Part shown: positions 19,033 to 30,449 of the stretch, piece after piece
Numbering within the stretch: position 1 is the first letter of the stretch
How the letters are laid out: each line of letters starts with the position of its first letter
NCBI RefSeq assembly: GCF_002240415.1
Contig: NZ_CP020028.1
Coordinates: 5,269,501-5,333,500 of the forward strand
Reading direction: 5' to 3'
Length of the DNA: 64,000 bases
Origin: Paenibacillus kribbensis
GTDB taxonomy: Bacteria; Bacillota; Bacilli; Paenibacillales; Paenibacillaceae
Position numbers and translations under genes: made by a program
Notes under the pieces: model-generated
Told to the model about the DNA's origin: nothing
The model's database searches: none
What the model saw: the letters and a program-made list of their open reading frames with translations, nothing else

Positions 19033-20049
19033 TTATTTCGTGAAATCAATGACCATGCGCCCTTGGATTTTGCCATTCTCCATCTCATCGAAGATATGAT
19101 TAATGTCTTCAATCGGACGTTTTTGTACAAGAGGGACGACTTTCCCTTCTGCAGCGAACTGGAACGCTTCTTTGAGGTCTTCACGAGTGCCGACCAAGGA
19201 GCCGATCACTTGAATGCCGTCCAGAACCAGACGCGGAATGTCCAGATCCATCTTATCGGTTGGAAGACCTACAGCTACAACACGCGCGCCAGCCTTCACA
19301 ACGTCGATTGCCTGGTTGAAAGGTGTTTTGGCAACAGCAGTAATCACAGTTGCATCCAGACCAGCACCGTTCGTTAACTCCTTGGCCCGGGCGACCGGAT
19401 CTTCTTTCAGGCTATTAACGACATAGTCGGCACCAACTTTTTTGGCCAGTTCGAGTTTTTCATCACTGATGTCAAAGGCTACAACTTTGGCATTGAATAC
19501 GTTTTTTGCGTATTGTACAGCCAGGTTGCCCAAGCCGCCAATGCCGAAGATACCGATCCATTGTCCTGGTCTGACTTCACTTACTTTAACTGCTTTATAT
19601 GTTGTAACCCCTGCGCAAGTTACACTGCTTGCAGCGGCAGGGTCAAGACGATCCGGTACTTTGACCGCGTAGTCAGCTGTGACAATACATTGTTCTGCCA
19701 TTGCACCGTCTACCGTGTATCCGGCATTTTTGACTTCACGGCACAGCGTTTCCCGCCCGGTTAAGCAATATTCGCAGTGACCGCAGCTTTCGAACATCCA
19801 GGCAATACTTACGCGATCACCTATTTTAAGACTGGTTACTCCTTCACCTAATTCAATAACTTTTCCAATGCCTTCATGCCCCAGAACTCTGCCTGTGACA
19901 TCACCAAAATCTGCATTTTTGACATGTAAATCTGTGTGGCAAACCCCACAATATTCCACCCGGACTAACGCTTCTCCATGTTTCAAAGAGCGTAAAGGCT
20001 TCTCTTCTATACTGACTTTGTTGTCTTTTGTAACAACTGCTGCTTTCAT
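19033..20049 (-). CDS. adhP: Zinc-dependent alcohol dehydrogenase (AdhP/AdhT type)
   Basis: A 338-residue medium-chain alcohol dehydrogenase that interconverts ethanol and acetaldehyde with NAD(H). The catalytic zinc ligands are Cys37 (CGVCHTDLH) and His58 in GHEGIG. The structural zinc loop has the four Cys of [15 protein letters not shown]. The Rossmann motif is [13 protein letters not shown]. Length matches the thermophilic Bacillus AdhT group. A near-consensus Rex box lies about 130 bp upstream, so repression while NADH is low and induction under fermentation are likely. Single gene with its own terminator. Confidence 0.93.
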
Positions 20050-20178
20050 GTGATCTCTCCTTTAACGGCTATATGGAATTATCTTGTAATGCACACTACA
20101 GATTATAATAATTTTTACCCAAGGAAAACAAATATATATTCAAGCTCTTTCCTAAGTCCTTGTACCCTTGTGGAGACT

Positions 20179-20196
20179 TTGTGAATTATTTTACAA
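20179..20196. promoter_or_regulatory. Rex-like redox operator
   Basis: TTGTGAATTATTTTACAA matches the Rex consensus TTGTGAA-N4-TTCACAA at 13 of 14 defined positions. It lies between the divergent adhP and carbonic anhydrase genes. An overlapping palindrome TTTTAC-AAT-GTAAAA (20189-20203) adds to the dyad structure here. Confidence 0.65.
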
Positions 20197-20241
20197 TGTA
20201 AAAAGTTCCACATTTTCTATCTGGAAGAAGGTTAAAGAGCC

Positions 20242-21078
20242 ATGAAAAAAAACTGGAAAGTTTGTCTATCCAGCGTGTTTTCCATTTTCTTGGTCGTATG
20301 GATAACAGGATGTACTCCTCAGTCCACGACTTCTAGCACCACCAACACCTCAGCCCTAGCAGCTGACAATGTACACGCGGTCGTTCAGGAAAGTCCGCAC
20401 TGGTCTTATGAGGGAAATGAGGGACCCGAGCATTGGGGAGAGCTGGAAAAAAATTTTGCCGCTTGTGGTAACGGCCAAGAACAATCACCTGTCAATATAG
20501 AGTATACCCGTTTGGAAGCTTCGCAAACGCAGCAACCGATACAGGTTCACTACACCAATACGAAAGTATCCATACTCAATAATGGACACACCGTTCAAAT
20601 CAATGCAGCCAGCCCCAGTAATTATATTGTACTGGACGGTACTAAATTTACTTTAAAGCAGTTTCATTTTCATCACCCCAGTGAGCACCAAATAGATGGG
20701 AAAAATGCCGATATGGAGCTGCATTTCGTCCATCAGAGCGACAACGGTAGCACAGCCGTCTTAGGAGTACTCATTCAAAACGGCAATGAAAATAAAGCTT
20801 TTAGCCGTATTTGGTCCAAACTGCCAACAGATGTTTCCAAGGAAGCAGCTCTGGAGGAAATCAATCTCGCGGCTCTTCTGCCGAAGGACCTGCACTCGAT
20901 TCGCTACAGCGGATCACTGACTACGCCGCCATGTACCGAGCATGTGAACTGGATAGTCCTGGAGCAGCCTATCGAAATGTCGGCAGACCAAATCAGCCGG
21001 TTCGCCACCCTTTTTCCCAATAACCATCGTCCTGTACAACAACTGGGAACCCGTAAGCTGACGACGGATCATCAATGA
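20242..21078 (+). CDS. Alpha-class carbonic anhydrase lipoprotein
   Basis: A 278-residue carbonic anhydrase that hydrates CO2 to bicarbonate at the outer face of the membrane. It has a lipoprotein signal with lipobox WITGC (Cys24). The alpha-class core is complete: HWGELEKNFAACGNGQEQSP, zinc histidines in QFHFHHPSEH and MELHFVH, and the signature SLTTPPCTEHVNW. Cys in NFAACGNG and TPPCTEH can form the usual disulfide. The ATG follows AGAAGGTTAAAGAG. It stands alone between divergent adhP and a convergent oxidoreductase. Confidence 0.94.
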   Translation: MKKNWKVCLSSVFSIFLVVWITGCTPQSTTSSTTNTSALAADNVHAVVQESPHWSYEGNEGPEHWGELEKNFAACGNGQEQSPVNIEYTRLEASQTQQPIQVHYTNTKVSILNNGHTVQINAASPSNYIVLDGTKFTLKQFHFHHPSEHQIDGKNADMELHFVHQSDNGSTAVLGVLIQNGNENKAFSRIWSKLPTDVSKEAALEEINLAALLPKDLHSIRYSGSLTTPPCTEHVNWIVLEQPIEMSADQISRFATLFPNNHRPVQQLGTRKLTTDHQ

Positions 21079-21079
21079 A

Positions 21080-21115
21080 AAAGCAACCCCCTCCGCGAAT
21101 CCAATACGGAGGGGG
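21080..21115 (-). terminator. Hairpin between convergent genes
   Basis: CCCCCTCCG pairs with CGGAGGGGG around an 11-base loop. Leftward it is followed by TTGCTTTTTC, so it best serves the minus-strand oxidoreductase gene. Confidence 0.7.
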
Positions 21116-21145
21116 CTACCTGATTATTATCCCATTGCTGCCTCG

Positions 21146-22441
21146 CTACAAACGCACCAGTTCCTCCACCTTCACTGGCAGACCTGTACGCATAGAGCGG
21201 TTGGCAGCGATGCCTGTTAAAATGGACCATGCGCCATCGATATGTGAAGCCGCACGATGAAAACGATCCTCTGCCGGCTTATCGAAAATATCCCGCAGCA
21301 TGACTGGATCGCCCCCACCATGACCACCTACACCTTCCTCTACTTCGACTTCATAAGGTGCGGCAAAGTGAGGATAAATCGTGATGGTCTTCTCTTTTAA
21401 CGCTCCTTCATCTGCCTTGCTGCCACCGGAGTTAACGTAGGACTGCTCGGATACCCGAACCTCCATCCGTCCCTTGGTGCCGTTAAATACGATGATAAAG
21501 CCCTCCCAAGGCAGGTAAGCATTTAGCGAGTAGTTCATCACTGCCTTGTTCTTGTACTTCACCATAACACTGAGAGTATCCTCGATGCTGATATTGTCGC
21601 CAAATACGCTTTGATCGCGCAGATAGCCATCCTCATGCTCCGCATCCAGATACATGCTTTTCAGATGCTCGTTACGGTCCAGATGCAGCGCAAAAGGATC
21701 ATTTTCCGCCGCCTTGCTGCCGTAAGCCCGTTGGTAGAACTCCGTCACACCGCGCTGCTCGGCATTTTCCCGGCCGTAAAATTTCAAATCGCCCATCGCA
21801 TATACCGTCTCTGGCTTCGAGCCGAGCCAAAAGTTCATCAGGTCAAAATGATGCGTCGATTTATGGACCAGCAGACCGCCGCTATTGCGCTTATCCCGGT
21901 GCCAGCGACGGAAATAATCCGCACCATGCTGTGTGTTCAGCAGCCATTCGAAATTGACCGACAAGACATCGCCAAGCGTCCCGTCCATAATAATCTCGCG
22001 GATTTTCGTATTATGCGGCGCATAGCGGTAGTTAAAGGTGACGCGCAGCTTGCGTCCCGTGCGGTCTATGGCGTCCAGAATATCCTGGCATTTGTCCTCG
22101 TCCACGGTCATCGGCTTCTCGGAAATGACATCACAGCCCAGTTCCATCGCCCGGATAATATACCGATGATGTACCCGGTCAACGGTCGTGACGATCACGA
22201 TATCCGGCTTCGTTTCCGCGATCATCCGGTCGAATTCATGAGCTTTATAGGTCGGAATCGGCTCATGGTCGTATTTCTCCTGCAGCAGTCGATTGGCATA
22301 ATCCATTCTCGTCTGATTGACATCACAGAACGCGATCAGCTCCGAGGTATCCTTGAAAACGGTAACAACTTCACCGTAAAAAAATTCGGCTCTGCCTCCG
22401 GTGCCCACAAGTGCATATTTGATTTTAGCCAATTGGTTCAC
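21146..22441 (-). CDS. Gfo/Idh/MocA-family oxidoreductase
   Basis: A 431-residue NAD(P)-dependent dehydrogenase of the Gfo/Idh/MocA family, acting on sugars, inositols or their derivatives. The Rossmann start is KYALVGTGGRAEFFYG, the EKP motif is VISEKPMTVDE, and the C-terminal domain carries GGLLVHKSTHHFDLMNFWLG with the usual substrate-site His. Length fits the long subgroup found beside AraC regulators in Paenibacillus. It is divergent from an AraC-type gene 129 bp away, probably its regulator. The substrate is not predictable. Confidence 0.88.
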   Translation of the reverse strand: MNQLAKIKYALVGTGGRAEFFYGEVVTVFKDTSELIAFCDVNQTRMDYANRLLQEKYDHEPIPTYKAHEFDRMIAETKPDIVIVTTVDRVHHRYIIRAMELGCDVISEKPMTVDEDKCQDILDAIDRTGRKLRVTFNYRYAPHNTKIREIIMDGTLGDVLSVNFEWLLNTQHGADYFRRWHRDKRNSGGLLVHKSTHHFDLMNFWLGSKPETVYAMGDLKFYGRENAEQRGVTEFYQRAYGSKAAENDPFALHLDRNEHLKSMYLDAEHEDGYLRDQSVFGDNISIEDTLSVMVKYKNKAVMNYSLNAYLPWEGFIIVFNGTKGRMEVRVSEQSYVNSGGSKADEGALKEKTITIYPHFAAPYEVEVEEGVGGHGGGDPVMLRDIFDKPAEDRFHRAASHIDGAWSILTGIAANRSMRTGLPVKVEELVRL

Positions 22442-22501
22442 ACCCTTTACATGAATTGCTTTTATTTTATAGTATAAAAAAGAGCAAAATCTTCGCTTTT
22501 A

Positions 22502-22519
22502 TTGTGAATTAATTCAAAA
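22502..22519. promoter_or_regulatory. Second Rex-like dyad
   Basis: TTGTGAATTAATTCAAAA differs from the Rex consensus at one of 14 defined positions and contains the 12-bp palindrome TGAATTAATTCA. It lies between the oxidoreductase and the AraC gene, so it could equally be an AraC or promoter element in AT-rich DNA. Confidence 0.35.
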
Positions 22520-22570
22520 AGTATGCATATATTATCCTCGTGCATTCTTTCATTAAAGGAGACTATCAAT

Positions 22571-23422
22571 ATGATCACCACCCCCCGTTTTGCCATCGAG
22601 CAAGCGCTGCGGACGGTCCCGTTCAGCATGTCCGCCGACCATGTCCACCAAGCGCATGAAATCTACTATCTGCTGGCAGGAGAACGATACTACTACATTA
22701 ATCAGCGGGTATACGCGCTACAGAAGGGCGATTTGATCTGGATCAGCAAACACGATTTTCACCGTACAAGCAACAAGGGGAGCGGCAGCCATGAGCGAAT
22801 TTTAATCAATTTCGATGAATCGTTTGTAGCCACGCCTATGCCTGTCGCTCCGTCCAGCGACCACAACCCGCTTCTTCTACCTGAGAAAAGCTTCCTGCTG
22901 CGACCTTCGGCGGAGGAACAACGCGAGCTGGAGCACCTGTTCCGGCAAATGCTGGATGAATACCATCAAGAGCATGCATACCGCCAAATGTATCTCCAAA
23001 GCTTGCTGCTCCAATTGCTTATCCGAATAAGACGCATACAATCGGCCGCTCCCGATACCATTGCACCGGAACGCAGCGAGAAGCAGCAGCGAGTATATTC
23101 GATCATTGAATACCTGCATGCACACTATGCCGAGAAGCTGTCGCTGGATCAACTGGCAGGGCATTTTTTTATTAGCAGCACGTATTTGTGCCGTATTTTC
23201 AAGCAAACCACAGGCTTTACCTTAGTAGAGTATCTTCAGGATGTCCGGGTACAGCAGGCACGGGCGTATCTGAGAGAAACAAACTGGAAAGTGACTTCCA
23301 TTGCTGAAAAAACGGGCTTTGACAGCATCGCTCACTTTGGCCGTGTATTCAAGCAATACACTGGGCATACCCCGTTACAGTATCGGAAAAAGCACCAAAA
23401 GGAGCAGGGAAACGGACGATAG
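22571..23422 (+). CDS. AraC-family transcriptional regulator
   Basis: A 283-residue regulator with an N-terminal cupin sensing domain (HEIYYLLAGERYYYINQRVYALQKGDLIWI) and two C-terminal helix-turn-helix motifs (KLSLDQLAGHFFISSTYLCRIFKQTTGFT and VTSIAEKTGFDSIAHFGRVFKQYTGHTPLQYR). I chose ATG 22571 because AAAGGAGA lies upstream; an ATG 16 codons earlier has none. It is divergent from the Gfo/Idh/MocA gene. Its last codons (GNGR-stop) lie in the left copy of the 19-bp direct repeat that brackets the cyclase-cupin cassette. Confidence 0.9.
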   Translation: MITTPRFAIEQALRTVPFSMSADHVHQAHEIYYLLAGERYYYINQRVYALQKGDLIWISKHDFHRTSNKGSGSHERILINFDESFVATPMPVAPSSDHNPLLLPEKSFLLRPSAEEQRELEHLFRQMLDEYHQEHAYRQMYLQSLLLQLLIRIRRIQSAAPDTIAPERSEKQQRVYSIIEYLHAHYAEKLSLDQLAGHFFISSTYLCRIFKQTTGFTLVEYLQDVRVQQARAYLRETNWKVTSIAEKTGFDSIAHFGRVFKQYTGHTPLQYRKKHQKEQGNGR

Positions 23423-23427
23423 CGCGT
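23409..23427 (+). repeat. Left 19-bp direct repeat of the cyclase-cupin cassette
   Basis: GAAACGGACGATAGCGCGT includes the last three codons and the stop of the AraC-type gene. An identical copy lies at 26240-26258, where it forms the last codons and stop of the cupin gene in the same frame. Confidence 0.9.
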
Positions 23428-23591
23428 GAAAAAAACGGAACAGCAGCCTGTAACGAGTGGTCGCGATGACCGTCTCCACTTTACGCCCGCATTCCGCCAT
23501 GTCGCTTCCTCGGTATATTTTTTACAAACACGAAAATCGGTTTCCCGAGCCTCATATAATGGGGATGACGATAACAAGGAGGGGGCAGGGA

Positions 23592-25520
23592 ATGGGCCAA
23601 AATATTATCGGAATCCACGAGGAGATCCGCCGGCTGTCCGGCGAGCTCATCCAAACACAGCAGCCGGACGGCACCTGGCGTTTTTGTTTCGAAAACGGGA
23701 CGATGCTCGACGCATTCGTAATCATTCTTTTTCGCACGTTAAACGCGGAGAAGGAGGACCTGATCCGGAGGCTGCATGACCGCATCCTTGCCGCGCAGCA
23801 ACCTGAAGGCTGCTGGAGGTGGTATAAGGACGAGGAAGAAGGCAATCTTTCTGCGACGGTCGAAGCGTATTACGCGTTGTTGTGCTCCGGGTACAGTCAG
23901 CCAAAGGACGAACCGGTTCAGCGGGCGAAGCAATACATTCTGGACCGGGGCGGGATCGGAAAAGCGGCGAGCCTGCTGACCAAAACGCTGCTGGCTGCGA
24001 CCGGGCAAAGGAAATGGCCCGCCTCGCTTTCGCTCATTCCGTTTGAAATGCTGCTGCTGTCTTCCTCTTTACCGCTCAGTTTTTTTGATTTTTCCGCCTA
24101 TTCCCGCGTCCATCTGGTCCCGCTGCTCATTATGGCCGATCGGGATTTTTCCGTTAAAACCGCCCATACTCCCGATTTAAGCGAGCTTTATACCAACCGA
24201 AGCCCAGCCGAGGAGCCGCTTTCCCGGGAAAACCGCAAGCTGCTGGAGTATATCCAGTCCACACTCGGCCATCTGGTCGGCACACCGCAGCGAATCCATC
24301 AAGCGGCGGTAAAAAAGGCGGAGCAGTATATGCTGGAACGGATTGAGGGAGACGGAACCCTGTACACGTACGCCAGCAGCACCGTGCTGATGGTGTTCGC
24401 GCTGCTGGCCCTCGGATACGACCCACAGCATCCGGTGATCACGCACGCGGTTGACGGCTTGTCCGCCATGTGCTGTAAGACTGGCGGATACACCACCATC
24501 CAAAACTCCCCCTCCACCGTCTGGGATACCGCCCTACTGGCCTATGCGCTGCAGGAAGCCGGAGTGAGCGTCCGGCATTCCGCGATGCAAAAAGCTGCCG
24601 TCTATTTACGGTCCAAGCAGCATCGCAAAGCCGGAGATTGGCAGATTCACAATCCCGGCACCGCCCCCGGCGGCTGGGGGTTTTCCGACACCAATACGAT
24701 CATCCCCGACGTCGACGACTCCACGGCCGCCCTTCGCGCCATCCACAGCCTGTCTGAACGCGATCCCGCTTATCTCGAATCCTGGAACCGCGGCCTAAAC
24801 TGGGTGATATCGATGCAAAACGACGACGGCGGCTGGCCGGCCTTTGAAAAAAACACCAACAAGGAAATGCTCACCTGGCTGGCGATCGAAGGGGCAAAAT
24901 CGGCGGCCACCGATCCGTCGGAGGCGGATCTTACCGGTCGAGCGCTGGAGTACCTGGGGAATTTCGCCAAGCTCGGCGTCCGGCACGGCTTTATCCAACG
25001 CGGGGCCGACTGGCTGATCAGCCATCAGCAGCCGGACGGTTCATGGTACGGCCACTGGGGGATATGCTACATTTACGGGACTTGGGCGGCGCTAACGGGC
25101 CTGAAGGCCGTGGGGCTTCCTTCCGATCATGCCGCTGTAACCAAAGGGGTGGATTGGCTGCTTGCCATCCAAAACGCGGACGGCGGCTGGGGGGAATCGT
25201 GCCGCAGCGATCAGGCGGAGCGTTATGTGCCGCTTTACGCCAGCACGCCTTCGCAAACGGCCTGGGCGCTCGACGCGCTGATCGCGGTGCACAACCGGCC
25301 TACGCCCGAGATCGAGCGAGGTGCCGCCAGATTGATCGAACTGCTGCACGAAGACGGCTGGGCAAGCGCGTATCCGACCGGTGCCGGTTTACCGGGGTAT
25401 TTTTACGTCCACTATCACAGCTATCGGTACATCTGGCCACTTCTGGCGCTGGGCCATTATGTCAAGAAATACGGGGACATATTCCCCCCGCCGCAAGCAT
25501 ATATATTCAGTAGAAATTGA
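23592..25520 (+). CDS. Squalene-hopene cyclase family terpene cyclase
   Basis: A 642-residue class II cyclase that protonates and folds a linear triterpene or C35 terpene. The catalytic acid motif DVDDSTA starts at residue 373, matching Asp374-377 of the Alicyclobacillus enzyme. Many QW-type repeats are present (QQPDGTWRFCFENG, GGWGFSDTN, QNDDGGWPAFEKN, QQPDGSWYGHWG, QNADGGWGE). It could be a squalene-hopene cyclase or a SqhC-type tetraprenyl-beta-curcumene cyclase that makes spore sporulenes. ATG 23592 follows AAGGAGGGGG. A TATAAT at 23555-23560 may be its -10 box. GC content is visibly higher than the flanks. Confidence 0.92.
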   Translation: MGQNIIGIHEEIRRLSGELIQTQQPDGTWRFCFENGTMLDAFVIILFRTLNAEKEDLIRRLHDRILAAQQPEGCWRWYKDEEEGNLSATVEAYYALLCSGYSQPKDEPVQRAKQYILDRGGIGKAASLLTKTLLAATGQRKWPASLSLIPFEMLLLSSSLPLSFFDFSAYSRVHLVPLLIMADRDFSVKTAHTPDLSELYTNRSPAEEPLSRENRKLLEYIQSTLGHLVGTPQRIHQAAVKKAEQYMLERIEGDGTLYTYASSTVLMVFALLALGYDPQHPVITHAVDGLSAMCCKTGGYTTIQNSPSTVWDTALLAYALQEAGVSVRHSAMQKAAVYLRSKQHRKAGDWQIHNPGTAPGGWGFSDTNTIIPDVDDSTAALRAIHSLSERDPAYLESWNRGLNWVISMQNDDGGWPAFEKNTNKEMLTWLAIEGAKSAATDPSEADLTGRALEYLGNFAKLGVRHGFIQRGADWLISHQQPDGSWYGHWGICYIYGTWAALTGLKAVGLPSDHAAVTKGVDWLLAIQNADGGWGESCRSDQAERYVPLYASTPSQTAWALDALIAVHNRPTPEIERGAARLIELLHEDGWASAYPTGAGLPGYFYVHYHSYRYIWPLLALGHYVKKYGDIFPPPQAYIFSRN

Positions 25521-25554
25521 GACGCCAAAGCGAAAGGAAAGGCAGGGGACGACC

Positions 25555-26253
25555 GTGGCGGTTTCTTATATGGATTTTACTTCACCTTCCGCACAATTTG
25601 CGTTCGACTTGAGAAACAACCCGGCATTCATCAAAGACGAACGCAATTACTTTAACTTATTGTCCATCAAACAGCTGAATACGTTGGGGAACATGTCGAT
25701 GCTGGATACTTACCTGGACAAGGGCAATGCTATCGAACCGCATTACCACCAAAACGCTTCGGAACTCGTTTATTGCATCTCGGGCGAAATCATCGTTTCC
25801 ATCATTAATCCGTTCACTAAGGAACTTCGGCATTATGCCATCCGGCCCGGTCAGACGGCCAGCGTGCCGCAAGCTTGGTGGCATTATGACACCGCCGCCG
25901 CCGACGGAACGCATTTTTTGGCGATTTTCGACGCACCGGTACCCGAGATCATTCCCGCTTCCGACATGCTGCGGTTAACGCCGGCCGAAGTATTCGCGCA
26001 TGTCTACTGCCTTGATGAAGCCAAAGTAAAAGAGGCTTTTGCCCCGCTGAATCAAACCGTGATCATCGGGCCGCCAAAAGGCTGTCAAAAGGCAACTCAG
26101 AGCGCTCACTATCAGCCGCAGCCTAATCCTGCCTCCTGCGCCTATCCCCCCTATAACCAGGGCTATGGCCTTCGCCCGTACCAGCAAAGCGACGGCAACC
26201 TGCAGCGGCCGCAGGCCATCGGAAACGGCTGGGCGGATAGAAACGGACGATAG
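25555..26253 (+). CDS. Single-domain cupin protein with Pro/Gln/Tyr-rich tail
   Basis: A 232-residue protein. The cupin motifs are complete: G-x5-HxH-x4-E-x6-G in GNAIEPHYHQNASELVYCISG, and G-x5-P-x4-H in GQTASVPQAWWH, so a metal site is expected. After about residue 165 comes a low-complexity tail rich in Pro, Gln, Tyr and Asn (PPYNQGYGLRPYQQ), resembling spore-coat tails. GTG 25555 follows AGGGG. It lies 34 bp after the cyclase gene and is probably cotranscribed. The last codons come from the right copy of the 19-bp repeat. Function unknown: a product-modifying enzyme or a coat protein are both possible. Confidence 0.82.
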   Translation: MAVSYMDFTSPSAQFAFDLRNNPAFIKDERNYFNLLSIKQLNTLGNMSMLDTYLDKGNAIEPHYHQNASELVYCISGEIIVSIINPFTKELRHYAIRPGQTASVPQAWWHYDTAAADGTHFLAIFDAPVPEIIPASDMLRLTPAEVFAHVYCLDEAKVKEAFAPLNQTVIIGPPKGCQKATQSAHYQPQPNPASCAYPPYNQGYGLRPYQQSDGNLQRPQAIGNGWADRNGR

Positions 26254-26258
26254 CGCGT
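26240..26258 (+). repeat. Right 19-bp direct repeat of the cyclase-cupin cassette
   Basis: Identical to 23409-23427. It supplies the cupin's final NGR-stop. The solute-binding protein gene on the other strand ends 18 bp beyond, so the ancestral arrangement was probably AraC gene directly facing that gene. Confidence 0.9.
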
Positions 26259-26276
26259 CACGGCTGTATCCCGTGC

Positions 26277-27575
26277 CTACTTGACCGCCTTGGATATGAT
26301 CTGATTCAGCTTCTCTATCGTTGCCGCAGCATCCTGCTTGCCGAGGAACATCAGGTCCATCGTCTCCGTGATATCCGAGTTTAATCCCGGTACCTGAGCA
26401 TCATAGGCCAGTGCGGAGCCATGTGCATGGCCTCTGTTGCGTCCTTCGGTCAAATAGCTGGAATGCTCAATCGTCGCCTTTTTCATAATGCTCTCATCTG
26501 CGGCGACAAGCGTACCCATGGCATTCCCGCCTTCAACCAGTCGCGCCTCCTGTCCCTTCACAGAAACATAGAATGACGCCAGCTTCATGGCCTCTTGCAG
26601 ATGCGGACTGTTTTTGTTCACGGCTACATAGGCAACCGGTATAGCGACAGGTTCATTTTTGCCTGTGTTGGAAGGCCAGTAGATATAATCAAAGTCGAGG
26701 TTTTGATTTTGACTGAACAAGGGCTCCAGCCATCTTCCCGCCGCCAGCATACCGACCTGATTGGACATGAACATCGCATCTGCCCCTTGTTCCTTGGGAA
26801 GTGATCCGAGGTATACTGCATTTCCTTTGCTCACCATATCGTACATGAAGCGGAAGGCTTCCTTGCCCTTTTCATTGTGGTCCAGTACATACTTGCCTTG
26901 TTCATCAAAAATCCGGCCGCCGTTCGACCACACCCATGAATACCAGTGAGCCCACCAGTTTTCCGCAATATAGCCTTGCTTCCCTGCAGCCTTCAGCTTC
27001 GATGTGACTTCCTCAAAGGCATCCCAGTTCCACTTGCCTTCGTCATCATATTCCTGCGGTGTCTTCACACCTGCTTCTTTAAAAACTTTTTTGTTGTAAT
27101 ACATCACCATCGGATTCGAGTCAGGAGTGATCCCATAGATTTCCCCATCACGCTTCGCCGGGCCCCACAATCCTTCTGGAAAATCCTCGGCCTTCACATC
27201 ACTCGCATCACTTGTTAGAAATTCACCCAAAGGCTGTACCTGCTTCGCCTCTATCAAACGCGCAATCGTCGGTTCATACGAATAAAACACATCCGGTCCG
27301 CGACTTCCCTGAAGCTGTGTCAGCAGCTTTTGCTCATATTGGTCTCCCGGCACAGGCACCAGCTTAACCTCAATATTCGGGTTTTCCTTTTCAAATGCAT
27401 CCAATACCCGCTGGTACACCTTCACCTCCGCAGGATTACCCCAGACCTGCAGGGTCAGCCGCACTTTGTTACCTTCTGTGCTCTCCAGCTTGGGAGAGGT
27501 ACTGCATGCCGCTGCCAGTAAAAACAGAACGCTGAGAAAAAAGCCAAGCTTGATCCAGCTCATGTAATCGTCCAT
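26277..27575 (-). CDS. Sugar ABC transporter substrate-binding lipoprotein (orphan)
   Basis: A 432-residue family 1 extracellular solute-binding protein. It has a lipoprotein signal ending in LAAAC, then the family pattern LTLQVWGNPAEVKVYQRVLDAFEKENPNIEVKLV and GRWLEPLF. It would capture a sugar or oligosaccharide at the cell surface. ATG 27575 follows AGGAGG; an ATG 13 codons upstream has no site. No permease or ATPase gene is adjacent, so it must work with components elsewhere. A cre-like site sits about 46 bp upstream, suggesting CcpA control. Confidence 0.9.
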   Translation of the reverse strand: MDDYMSWIKLGFFLSVLFLLAAACSTSPKLESTEGNKVRLTLQVWGNPAEVKVYQRVLDAFEKENPNIEVKLVPVPGDQYEQKLLTQLQGSRGPDVFYSYEPTIARLIEAKQVQPLGEFLTSDASDVKAEDFPEGLWGPAKRDGEIYGITPDSNPMVMYYNKKVFKEAGVKTPQEYDDEGKWNWDAFEEVTSKLKAAGKQGYIAENWWAHWYSWVWSNGGRIFDEQGKYVLDHNEKGKEAFRFMYDMVSKGNAVYLGSLPKEQGADAMFMSNQVGMLAAGRWLEPLFSQNQNLDFDYIYWPSNTGKNEPVAIPVAYVAVNKNSPHLQEAMKLASFYVSVKGQEARLVEGGNAMGTLVAADESIMKKATIEHSSYLTEGRNRGHAHGSALAYDAQVPGLNSDITETMDLMFLGKQDAAATIEKLNQIISKAVK

Positions 27576-27620
27576 CGTAATCGCCTCCTGTAGCTTCGCA
27601 TAGTTATATGTCACGCTATT

Positions 27621-27634
27621 TTAAAACGCTTACA
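27621..27634. promoter_or_regulatory. Probable CcpA cre site
   Basis: TTAAAACGCTTACA matches the cre consensus TGWAANCGNTNWCA with one mismatch. It lies upstream of the sugar-binding lipoprotein gene. Confidence 0.55.
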
Positions 27635-27708
27635 AAAATGTTCTCTATCATCATATGTAGAAGGAAGAGACGCGATCCGAGATATGTGTGTAAAATATAA
27701 TGCATAAC

Positions 27709-27744
27709 GAACAAGGCAGCCTTGGGATCAAGGCTGCCTTGTTC
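27709..27744. terminator. Perfect 16-bp stem hairpin
   Basis: GAACAAGGCAGCCTTG pairs perfectly with its complement around a 4-base loop, downstream of ppdK. Leftward there is no T tract, so it may act as a weak terminator or RNA stabiliser. Confidence 0.6.
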
Positions 27745-27776
27745 ATTTTACACAATATACTATTGAAATGGTTCAG

Positions 27777-30449
27777 CTACAAAGCGGACAACGTTCTCTC
27801 AGGCTGCTCCGCTCTGACAAGCAAGGCTGCTTGAGCAGCGGCAATGCGGGCAAACGGCACCCGGTACGGGGAGCAACTAACATAGTCCAGTCCGCTGCGG
27901 TGACAAAAGAGAATTGACTCGCTATCCCCGCCATGCTCACCACAGATACCTGTCTCCAGAAAAGGCTTTTTTGCTCTGCCTTTGACAACAGCCCATTCGA
28001 TCAGCTTGCCTACGCCATCCTGATCCAACACCTGGAAGGGATTGGTTTCCAGAATATTCTTCTCCATATAGGAGCCGAGGAATTTTCCTTCAGCATCATC
28101 ACGACTGTAACCAAAGGTCATTTGGGTCAGATCATTGGTTCCAAAGGAGAAAAAGTCGGCGTACTGGGCCACGCTATCTGCCAGCAGGGCGGCTCTTGGC
28201 ACCTCAATCATCGTGCCTACCCGATATCTGAACCCTTTGAATTCCTCGCTAAGCACCTGAGCGGCTACCTTATCAACCAGTTCCCTCATTTGCTTGAGTT
28301 CATTGGAGTGGCCAACCAGCGGAATCATAATCCCCGGCCTTACATCCACGCCCTTGCGCAATGCCGCTTGCGCGGCCTTAAAGATCGCTTCAATCTGCAT
28401 GTCGTATATTTCTGGGAACAGAATGCCCAGCCGAACACCGCGCAGACCCAGCATAGGGTTGATTTCCCGCAGCTCGTGCACCTTGGAGATGGTATTTTTA
28501 AGACGTCGCAGTTCCTCCGCATGGCCGCCAGAAAGCTCAAGCTCCCGCTGTTGCTCCTGAAGCTGTTCCAGATTCGGTAGGAACTCATGCAACGGCGGGT
28601 CCAGCAGGCGGATCGTCATCGATAAACCGTCCATCGCACTGAACATAGCCTCAAAGTCAAACTGTTGCATTTGGAGTAAACGATTCAAATGAGTAATCCG
28701 CTCCTCCTGATCATCCGCCAAAATCATCGCCTGAACGATAGGCAGACGATTGCCCGAGAAAAACATATGCTCCGTCCGGCAAAGCCCGATGCCTTCGGCT
28801 CCAAATTCCCGCGCTTTGACTGCGTCATGTGGCGTATCGGCATTGGTGTAGACCTTCAACGTCCGAATGCCATCCGCAATTTCCAGCAGCTTCAGCAGTT
28901 CCGGTGTAATGACCGGCTCGCTCAGGGACAGACTGCCTTCGTACACCTGCCCGGAGGTCGAATCGATTGAGATATTTTCCCCTTCCTGGAAGGTCAGGTT
29001 ACCGATGCTGACGCTCCGACTATCCAGATCAATGCTCAGCGCGTCACAGCCGCAAATGCAGGGTTTACCCATCCCCCTCGCAACCACGGCAGCATGGCTG
29101 GTCATCCCCCCTCGACTCGTCAGCACACCTTCAGCGGCAATGATCCCATGAACATCGTCGGGTGAGGTTTCCACACTGACCAGGATGACTTTCTGCCCAT
29201 CCTTCGTCCAGCTCTCTGCCGTATCTGCGTCGAAGACAATACGCCCACTCGCTGCGCCGGGCGAGGCAGGCAGACCTTGGGCAATCGCAACCAGCGGTGT
29301 GGAAGTATCAATGGAGCGATGCAGCAGTTGATCCATGTGGGACGGCTCGATCCGCTGGATCGCCTCCTCTTGGCTGATAATCCCTTCCTCCACCAAATCT
29401 ACAGCTATTTTTACAGCCGCCTGCGCCGTTCTTTTGCCGCTGCGCGTCTGTAGCAGATACAAATTGCCTTTCTCAATCGTAAACTCGATATCCTGCATAT
29501 CCCGGTAATGGTGCTCCAGCAAGGAAGCCAGCTCTTCCAGACGATCATAGACTAGCGGCTGCTCCTCCAGAAGCTGGGCAATAGGATTGGGTGTTCGCAC
29601 TCCGGCAACAACATCCTCGCCCTGGGCATTCACCATATACTCGCCGTACAATTCCTTAGCACCTGTGGAGGGATTGCGGGTGAACAGTACCCCGGTTCCA
29701 CTGTCGTTGCCGAGATTGCCAAACACCATGGCCTGAATGTTCACTGCTGTCCCTTGTTCATCCGGGATGCCGTAAGCCTTCCGGTACACCTTGGCACGCA
29801 TATTGTTCCAGCTGCGGAACACAGCTTCCACCGCCAGTTGCAATTGCTGATATACATCCTGTGGAAACAGCTGGCCGCTGCGCTCTGCGACCAGATCTTT
29901 GTACTTTGCGATCAATTGCTTCCATTCTCCTGCGCTAACCTCCTGGTCACTGGCACGCCCGTTGGTTTGCTTGTTCTGCTCCTGCAGGTGTTCAAAATGG
30001 ATGGCGTCTATACCTAGCACGACCTCACCAAACATTTGGATAAATCTGCGGTAGCAGTCATAGGCAAAGGTTTCATTTCCCGTCTGTTTCGCCAGTCCAC
30101 GCACGGTTTCATCATTCAGACCCAGATTCAGAATCGTATCCATCATACCGGGCATCGAGGTTACCGAGCCTGAACGGACAGATACCAGCAAAGGCCGCTT
30201 CGCATCTCCGAATATAGCCGACTGGGCTTCCTCAACATCGTGCAGGGCAATTACGATTTCGCCCAATAAGCCCTCCGGGAGCTTGCCGCCGGAAGTAAAG
30301 TAGGCTCGACACGCCTCGGTAGTCACCGTAAAGCCGGGAGGGATCGGAAGACCTAGTGTCGTCATTTCCGCGAGATTGGCGCCTTTTCCTCCTAGTAGCG
30401 CTTTCATCCCCAACTTACCTTCGTTAAATGAGTACACTCTTTTCAACAT
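27777..30449 (-). CDS. ppdK: Pyruvate, phosphate dikinase
   Basis: A protein of about 890 residues that interconverts pyruvate + ATP + Pi with PEP + AMP + PPi. Domains in order: N-terminal ATP-grasp (GGKGANLAEMTTLGLPIPPGF; MFGNLGNDSGTGVLFTRNPSTG), the phosphohistidine swivel (TSRGGMTSHAAVVARGMGKPC), and the PEP/pyruvate TIM barrel (IGLCRTEHMFF; SFGTNDLTQMTFGYSRDD; TGICGEHGGD). I chose the ATG of MLKRVYSF because GGAGGG lies about ten bases upstream; earlier in-frame starts are too close to it. No PPDK regulatory protein gene is adjacent. With pyruvate kinase in the window it links to the PEP supply for the PTS. Confidence 0.94.
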   Translation of the reverse strand: MLKRVYSFNEGKLGMKALLGGKGANLAEMTTLGLPIPPGFTVTTEACRAYFTSGGKLPEGLLGEIVIALHDVEEAQSAIFGDAKRPLLVSVRSGSVTSMPGMMDTILNLGLNDETVRGLAKQTGNETFAYDCYRRFIQMFGEVVLGIDAIHFEHLQEQNKQTNGRASDQEVSAGEWKQLIAKYKDLVAERSGQLFPQDVYQQLQLAVEAVFRSWNNMRAKVYRKAYGIPDEQGTAVNIQAMVFGNLGNDSGTGVLFTRNPSTGAKELYGEYMVNAQGEDVVAGVRTPNPIAQLLEEQPLVYDRLEELASLLEHHYRDMQDIEFTIEKGNLYLLQTRSGKRTAQAAVKIAVDLVEEGIISQEEAIQRIEPSHMDQLLHRSIDTSTPLVAIAQGLPASPGAASGRIVFDADTAESWTKDGQKVILVSVETSPDDVHGIIAAEGVLTSRGGMTSHAAVVARGMGKPCICGCDALSIDLDSRSVSIGNLTFQEGENISIDSTSGQVYEGSLSLSEPVITPELLKLLEIADGIRTLKVYTNADTPHDAVKAREFGAEGIGLCRTEHMFFSGNRLPIVQAMILADDQEERITHLNRLLQMQQFDFEAMFSAMDGLSMTIRLLDPPLHEFLPNLEQLQEQQRELELSGGHAEELRRLKNTISKVHELREINPMLGLRGVRLGILFPEIYDMQIEAIFKAAQAALRKGVDVRPGIMIPLVGHSNELKQMRELVDKVAAQVLSEEFKGFRYRVGTMIEVPRAALLADSVAQYADFFSFGTNDLTQMTFGYSRDDAEGKFLGSYMEKNILETNPFQVLDQDGVGKLIEWAVVKGRAKKPFLETGICGEHGGDSESILFCHRSGLDYVSCSPYRVPFARIAAAQAALLVRAEQPERTLSAL

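Follow-up and report, generated by a model that had tools for sequence, protein, structure and literature searches.

A foreign-looking cyclase–cupin segment at the site of two transporter permease genes in Paenibacillus kribbensis and the 19-bp repeat at its ends

We analysed a window of 64,000 nucleotides from the genome of Paenibacillus kribbensis (contig NZ_CP020028.1, positions 5,269,501 to 5,333,500), in which the genes of a terpene cyclase and a cupin lie between two copies of an identical 19-mer. A first-pass annotation had explained this arrangement by an insertion at the 3' end of an intact araC-type gene, which duplicated that end in the manner of the attachment (att) sites of integrative elements. 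The comparison with related genomes shows a different picture: the cyclase–cupin segment (positions 23415–26255, no strand assigned) appears to have taken the place of two sugar-transporter permease genes. Apart from an unusual and instructive scar, the gene replacement is an ordinary one. The history which explains the whole best, and which we regard as probable, is that a foreign segment replaced the permease genes and was trimmed, and that a later rewriting of one junction gave the 19-bp scar.

The site in related genomes

In total, 75 genomes of the genus including that of the window were searched, and 14 relatives with good matches to both flanks, namely to the AraC-type regulator gene and to the gene of an ATP-binding cassette (ABC) solute-binding protein, were compared. 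Ten of these 14 (G004, G007, G014, G015, G062, G069, G072, G073, G092, G093) contain two complete ABC permease genes between the flanks; the pair is about 1.72 kb long and has the orientation of the binding-protein gene. The match to the binding protein is split into two pieces in G093. It is the occurrence of permease genes at this site in ten relatives which argues that the segment replaced them. The homology breaks with resident DNA are sharp on both sides of the segment: the relatives' homology stops at position 23414 or a few bases before and restarts at 26256–26268, the values for the best-matching relatives being 23414 and 26256–26257.

The four relatives without the permease pair are G063, G034, G006, and G032. 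G063 is P. farraposensis (locus L040), which possesses at this site a cyclase 93% identical to that of the window, without the cupin; the cyclase rows of G063 and L040 are identical. A tree computed for the flanks of 15 genomes separates the window and P. farraposensis from the other 13 with 93% support. The site is occupied in G034 by a LytTR-type regulator and a secreted-looking protein, and in G006 and G032 by a response regulator, a histidine kinase, and a hydrolase (all named by eye from translations). Permease remnants were detected in G034 and G006 (tblastn; DNA), and a 53-bp match in G032 (DNA); in the corresponding loci L034, L035, and L036, the gap between araC and the binding-protein gene thus combines other genes with remnants of the permeases. 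Permeases or their remnants and genes differing from relative to relative point to a site of transporter loss and gene gain and, by the look of it, this gap would have undergone recurrent loss and gain of genes, more than one time. A relocation of the permeases within the own genome was considered and dropped, as the permease DNA gave there three matches alone, all short or distant (49–158 bp).

Identity and origin of the cyclase and cupin genes

The cyclase gene (23592–25520, plus strand) codes for 642 residues, the cupin gene (25555–26253, plus strand; Pfam PF00190) for 232. The cyclase is a member of the squalene-hopene cyclase family: it contains the domains PF13249 and PF13243, reaches 440.4 bits with TIGR01507 (cut-off 431.1), and possesses the residues DVDD at position 373; a DXDD motif is a feature of this family. 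Judged from its family, the product of the enzyme is probably a polycyclic terpenoid resembling hopanoids or sporulene, perhaps with a role in spores.

Both genes are probably foreign and would originate from a GC-richer Paenibacillus. In a cyclase tree of 48 rows, chosen from a larger number, the window, P0241 (P. kribbensis), P0242, and P. farraposensis constitute one group (support 100/98), which nests in the cyclases of macerans, oralis, timonensis, and barengoltzii (16 rows, 100/100). The cyclases resident in sister species form a separate group of their own (100/100), and the placement of the window's cyclase conflicts with the flank tree of 15 genomes. The GC content of the cyclase gene is 58.8%, and values of 57–63% were found in five donor-like loci, which were drawn from the best 80 of 471 relatives. 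A cupin gene is located 3' of the cyclase on the same strand, at a distance of 0.5 to 4 kb, in five of the 12 related loci checked (L041–L044, L047); in the other seven (L040, L045, L046, L048, L050, L054, L089), no cupin was found at E 1e-10 in the sequence available per locus. The window's cupin is 70–75% identical to the five donor-like cupins and 97% identical to the one of Paenibacillus sp. Aloe-11.

The comparison with the donor-like loci also indicates how the segment may have been trimmed. Their sequences match the window up to approximately position 25478 and again from 25477–25535, and about 0.4–4 kb lie between these two parts in the donors. Upstream of the cyclase gene, the donor-like loci resemble the window from about 23543 onward. 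This suggests an internal deletion joint at about 25478 (no strand), by which the 3' end of the cyclase gene would have been fused to the upstream region of the cupin gene. The C-terminus of P0241 shows nearly the same fused cyclase end as the window; the cyclase end of P. farraposensis and the DNA downstream of it resemble P. macerans (by eye).

A locus for the resident cyclases was identified in G007, beside a tRNA-Leu gene and an msrA-like gene (by eye), and also in six of 15 genomes searched (G004, G006, G034, G062, G092, G093; the right flank of G092 being on a different contig). In the window genome both flanks of this locus are present, but a distance of about 21 kb separates them and no such cyclase is there. 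As six of 16 genomes searched gave no cyclase match at all, the resident cyclase is patchy, and a replacement of an older resident copy by the incoming one is possible. A clade would have gained a lipid-cyclase gene at a new place, and the cyclase which several sister species keep elsewhere is missing there. The approximately 21 kb found in place of the sister species' cyclase (L217, L218; G000:C1:3622000–3651000) contain metabolic-looking genes; no recombinase was recognised by eye among their translations, for which no scan with family models was made. The window genome (L161) and P. farraposensis (L160) possess elsewhere a second cyclase, which is 46% identical; together with one from G075, these sequences group separately from the remaining 45 rows.

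The 19-bp repeat and its possible causes

The two copies of the 19-mer are exact and in direct orientation; they are located, as the first-pass annotation had reported, at 23409–23427 and 26240–26258 (plus strand), and there is no third copy in the window at ≤3 mismatches. The window contains no longer exact direct repeat than the 19-mer; the next in length has 17 nt. For shuffled windows (n = 100), the expected number of matches to it is 0, and with uniform base use a stretch of 64 kb should contain about 0.001 exact pairs of at least 19 nt spaced by ≤5 kb. The own genome (5.78 Mb) contains exactly two matches at ≤2 mismatches, both at this locus; on account of these two copies, a genome repeat family was rejected. 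An occurrence in viral contigs was tested and dropped. Further observations of the annotation hold as well: the ends of the AraC-type and cupin open reading frames (ORFs), both with the residues NGR and a stop codon, lie in the left and the right copy, respectively, in identical frame, and the cyclase and cupin genes are the only ones enclosed. The guanine-plus-cytosine (GC) content between the copies is 57.0%, compared to 47.9% on the left (20001–23408), 52.1% on the right (26259–30000), and 48.4% for the whole window. Both copies sit on the homology breakpoints. The 19-bp repeat is real and non-random. A chance identity of two short unrelated stretches would have to account for less than 19 nt, because each copy is partly native; given the small number of pairs expected at this spacing and the location of the 19-mer on both breakpoints, we consider such a coincidence extremely improbable.

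If a circular cyclase–cupin unit had integrated at a 19-bp att core in the araC 3' end and duplicated this core, the expected outcome would be a unit of foreign-looking GC content between perfect direct repeats, the 3' end of a gene holding one of them, as is found here. However, the 19-mer is absent at ≤3 mismatches from the cyclase segment at the same site in P. farraposensis and at ≤1 mismatch from all 74 other genomes of the genus, and in ten of the 14 relatives permease genes occupy the site; the relative predicted by the annotation, with an araC gene directly facing the solute-binding gene and a single 19-mer, was thus not encountered. At ≤3 mismatches none of the related loci compared contains the 19-mer, matches being confined to three loci of the own genome. 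Nor did the genes give any sign of a mobile unit. The annotation had noted the lack of an integrase or transposase, and no such enzyme or other recombinase is among the 15 Pfam-scanned proteins (16294–38485), a set which leaves out ORFs below 220 residues and some larger ones. The window contains no tRNA gene, for which reason a tRNA target was dropped. No inverted match of at least 10 nt was found between the two ends (23401–23640 versus 26101–26270); a transposon was rejected for want of terminal inverted repeats and of a transposase in the scanned proteins. Carriage of the cyclase by phages or plasmids was dropped: at E 1e-5 no phage record matched it, and matches were found in 66 plasmid records, every one of them below 60% identity. 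The annotation had also suggested a search for cyclase–cupin pairs with short flanking repeats at other loci; the five donor-like loci have no flanking repeat in common, and no direct repeat within about 800 bases of their two ends exceeds 12 nt, a length reached in two of the five.

The reading as an integrative element is therefore largely refuted, and we deem it very improbable. Since the P. farraposensis segment and the 74 genomes are devoid of the 19-mer, and since AraC and cupin both end differently in the nearest known kin, it is probably neither an att site nor a duplication made by insertion. The interpretation of the annotation is supported in part: its small mobile or recombination-borne cassette is foreign-looking and reaches precisely from the araC 3' end to the solute-binding gene, but lacks any indication of mobility, and the cyclase–cupin unit is probably not self-mobile. 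The two findings which the annotation had named as speaking against it, namely both repeats in all relatives or a common repeat family, were not made.

An inspection of the junctions allows the 19 bp to be read as three pieces: GAAACG (6 bp; 23409–23414 in the left copy), which is araC sequence, a 10-nt core (23415–23424), and CGT (3 bp; 23425–23427). In the right copy, these correspond to the end of the cupin gene, the core, and the CGT of the resident flank. CGT is also found in P. farraposensis, on the left 5' of the cassette and on the right 5' of the resident flank. On the left of P. farraposensis, araC is followed by 15 nt unlike the 10 of the window and then by CGTGAAAAAAACGG as in the window. 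The AraC proteins end with NA-stop or KA-stop in L040, P0122, P0127, and P0181, with NAPTP in the permease-bearing L033, and with NGR in the window; the cupins end with HSYHNGP in Aloe-11, the nearest one known, and with DRNGR in the window, and the donor-like cupins match up to 26234–26235 only. Among the cluster representatives compared, neither of the window's two ends, as they stand, is seen in the nearest known kin. A model was assembled from three parts, namely the window's araC as far as GAAACG, the right copy as far as CGT, and the continuation in P. farraposensis; it equals the window's left junction at 53 of 54 positions, and what it tests is the gap-free joining of these pieces.

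The probable history outlined above can be detailed as follows. The ancestor shared by the window species and P. farraposensis would have acquired a cyclase–cupin segment of the macerans/oralis/timonensis type by an illegitimate, transformation-like gene replacement (the uptake route being our inference), which displaced two permease genes at the locus of araC and the sugar ABC transporter. Trimming would have followed: the cyclase end and the region upstream of the cupin were joined by a deletion in the window or P. kribbensis-like lineage, and P. farraposensis lost the cupin. Later, in a lineage seen so far in the window genome alone, one junction would have been rewritten from the other, which created the 19-bp repeat. 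Provided that the right copy came first, the most economical route would be a transient tandem duplication joined at CGT and a subsequent deletion of one copy between two GAAACG; a single template switch would give an equal product. That the repeat is the fossil of a passing tandem amplification at a 3-bp microhomology, which collapsed at a 6-bp microhomology and copied the right joint to the left, is a tentative proposal which we rate somewhat below an even chance. Were it true, short perfect repeats around acquired genes could in general be taken for traces of lost tandem copies and not for att sites.

Several points weigh against this account. GAAACG is present at the araC end of only four of seven relatives (L033, L034, L037, L038), and P. 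farraposensis has GGAACG; the match at 53 of 54 positions is mostly built in, because the araC and core letters of the model were taken from the window; and the proposed joints comprise just 6 and 3 bp and were read post hoc. Within the last seven residues, the cupins of the window and Aloe-11 differ by three residues and a 2-residue gap, which is more than elsewhere. The core may have originated on the left and its copy on the right may be the younger one, the DNA of a right junction with cupin being available from the window strain alone. The protein clusters P0121 (4 sequences), P0001 (12), and P0241 (10) were each compared by one representative, and other strains may therefore share the window's ends; P0001 and P0241 may come from different strains, P0122, P0127, and P0181 were compared as proteins without their surrounding DNA, and the fork of the window and P0241 in the cyclase tree is weak (83/26). 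In addition, the sporulene-type role suggested for the cyclase is a guess from its family.

Some of these points lend themselves to a copying in the reverse direction: a composite left junction, with a core of unexplained source, would have arisen before, and about 19 bp of it would have been copied to the right during a deletion of the native 3' end of the cupin gene and the donor DNA behind it. This agrees with GAAACG on the left being araC sequence in four of seven relatives, with the end of the donor-like cupin match at 26234–26235, and with the differing C-terminus of the Aloe-11 cupin. Yet the 10-nt core on the left then requires a separate origin, and the N-G-x-stop of the window's cupin is like the NGP-stop of Aloe-11, a sign that the right end may be native at least in part; we consider this direction rather unlikely.

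The resident flanks comprise the following genes. The AraC-type regulator gene (22571–23422, plus strand; Pfam), whose ORF is listed from 22523 and whose last codons and stop lie inside the left 19-mer, codes for a protein with 85–91% identity across the 14 relatives and a partial match in G063; in P. farraposensis (L040, 5198–5830), the gene is without its N-terminal part. A GFO/IDH/MocA oxidoreductase gene (21146–22441, minus strand; Pfam) is collinear with araC in the nearest relatives. On the other side, the last codons and the stop of the cupin gene lie inside the right 19-mer, and the ABC solute-binding protein gene (26277–27614, minus strand; PF01547) is without the two permease genes which adjoin it in relatives; it is a possible orphan. 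In the region 23380–26300, eight terminator-like sites were counted, compared to 3.3 (standard deviation 1.7) in shuffles, and one promoter-like site, compared to 1.6 expected.

Comparison with known systems

The literature was searched and no report of this locus was found, which is not a proof of absence. Integrative elements are flanked by att direct repeats, one of which lies at the 3' end of a gene. The segment described here shares both features; unlike such elements, it has neither an integrase that was found nor a tRNA gene, and its sister copy is without the repeat. This example indicates that illegitimate recombination can leave, as a later scar, a perfect repeat on both sides of a foreign gene pair with the look of an att site or a target duplication, and that the comparison with sister species is required before such a segment is called mobile.

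SqhC of Bacillus subtilis belongs to the squalene-hopene family, and we know of no cupin beside sqhC in this species. Sporulenol synthases of the SqhC type cyclise C35 polyprenes in spores. As reported in PMC13123705, B. subtilis spores without sqhC contain no sporulene and withstand peroxide and UV less well. The likeness to that pathway is a squalene-hopene-family cyclase in a spore-former; the Paenibacillus enzyme, in contrast, is known from its sequence, and its substrate and product are predicted.

The proposed entry resembles homology-facilitated illegitimate recombination, for which PMC3240628 describes insertions accompanied by a deletion of like size and micro-homologies of 3–10 bp, in Streptococcus pneumoniae, Acinetobacter baylyi, and Pseudomonas stutzeri as well as, at a low rate, in Escherichia coli conjugation. 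In both cases foreign DNA is exchanged for a resident stretch of similar size with short microhomology at the joints. Unlike the events of PMC3240628, the one in the window is deduced from comparison, its original joints have since been altered, and no homologous anchor is shown. The proposed amplification has its counterpart in TDAH, in which acquired genes are duplicated in tandem between short borders (9 bp), according to PMC11111574 also in B. subtilis. The window, for its part, keeps the scar alone and the duplicated state was not observed; the likeness is that short borders are enough for the duplication of acquired genes, namely 9 bp in TDAH and, as proposed here, 3 and 6 bp.

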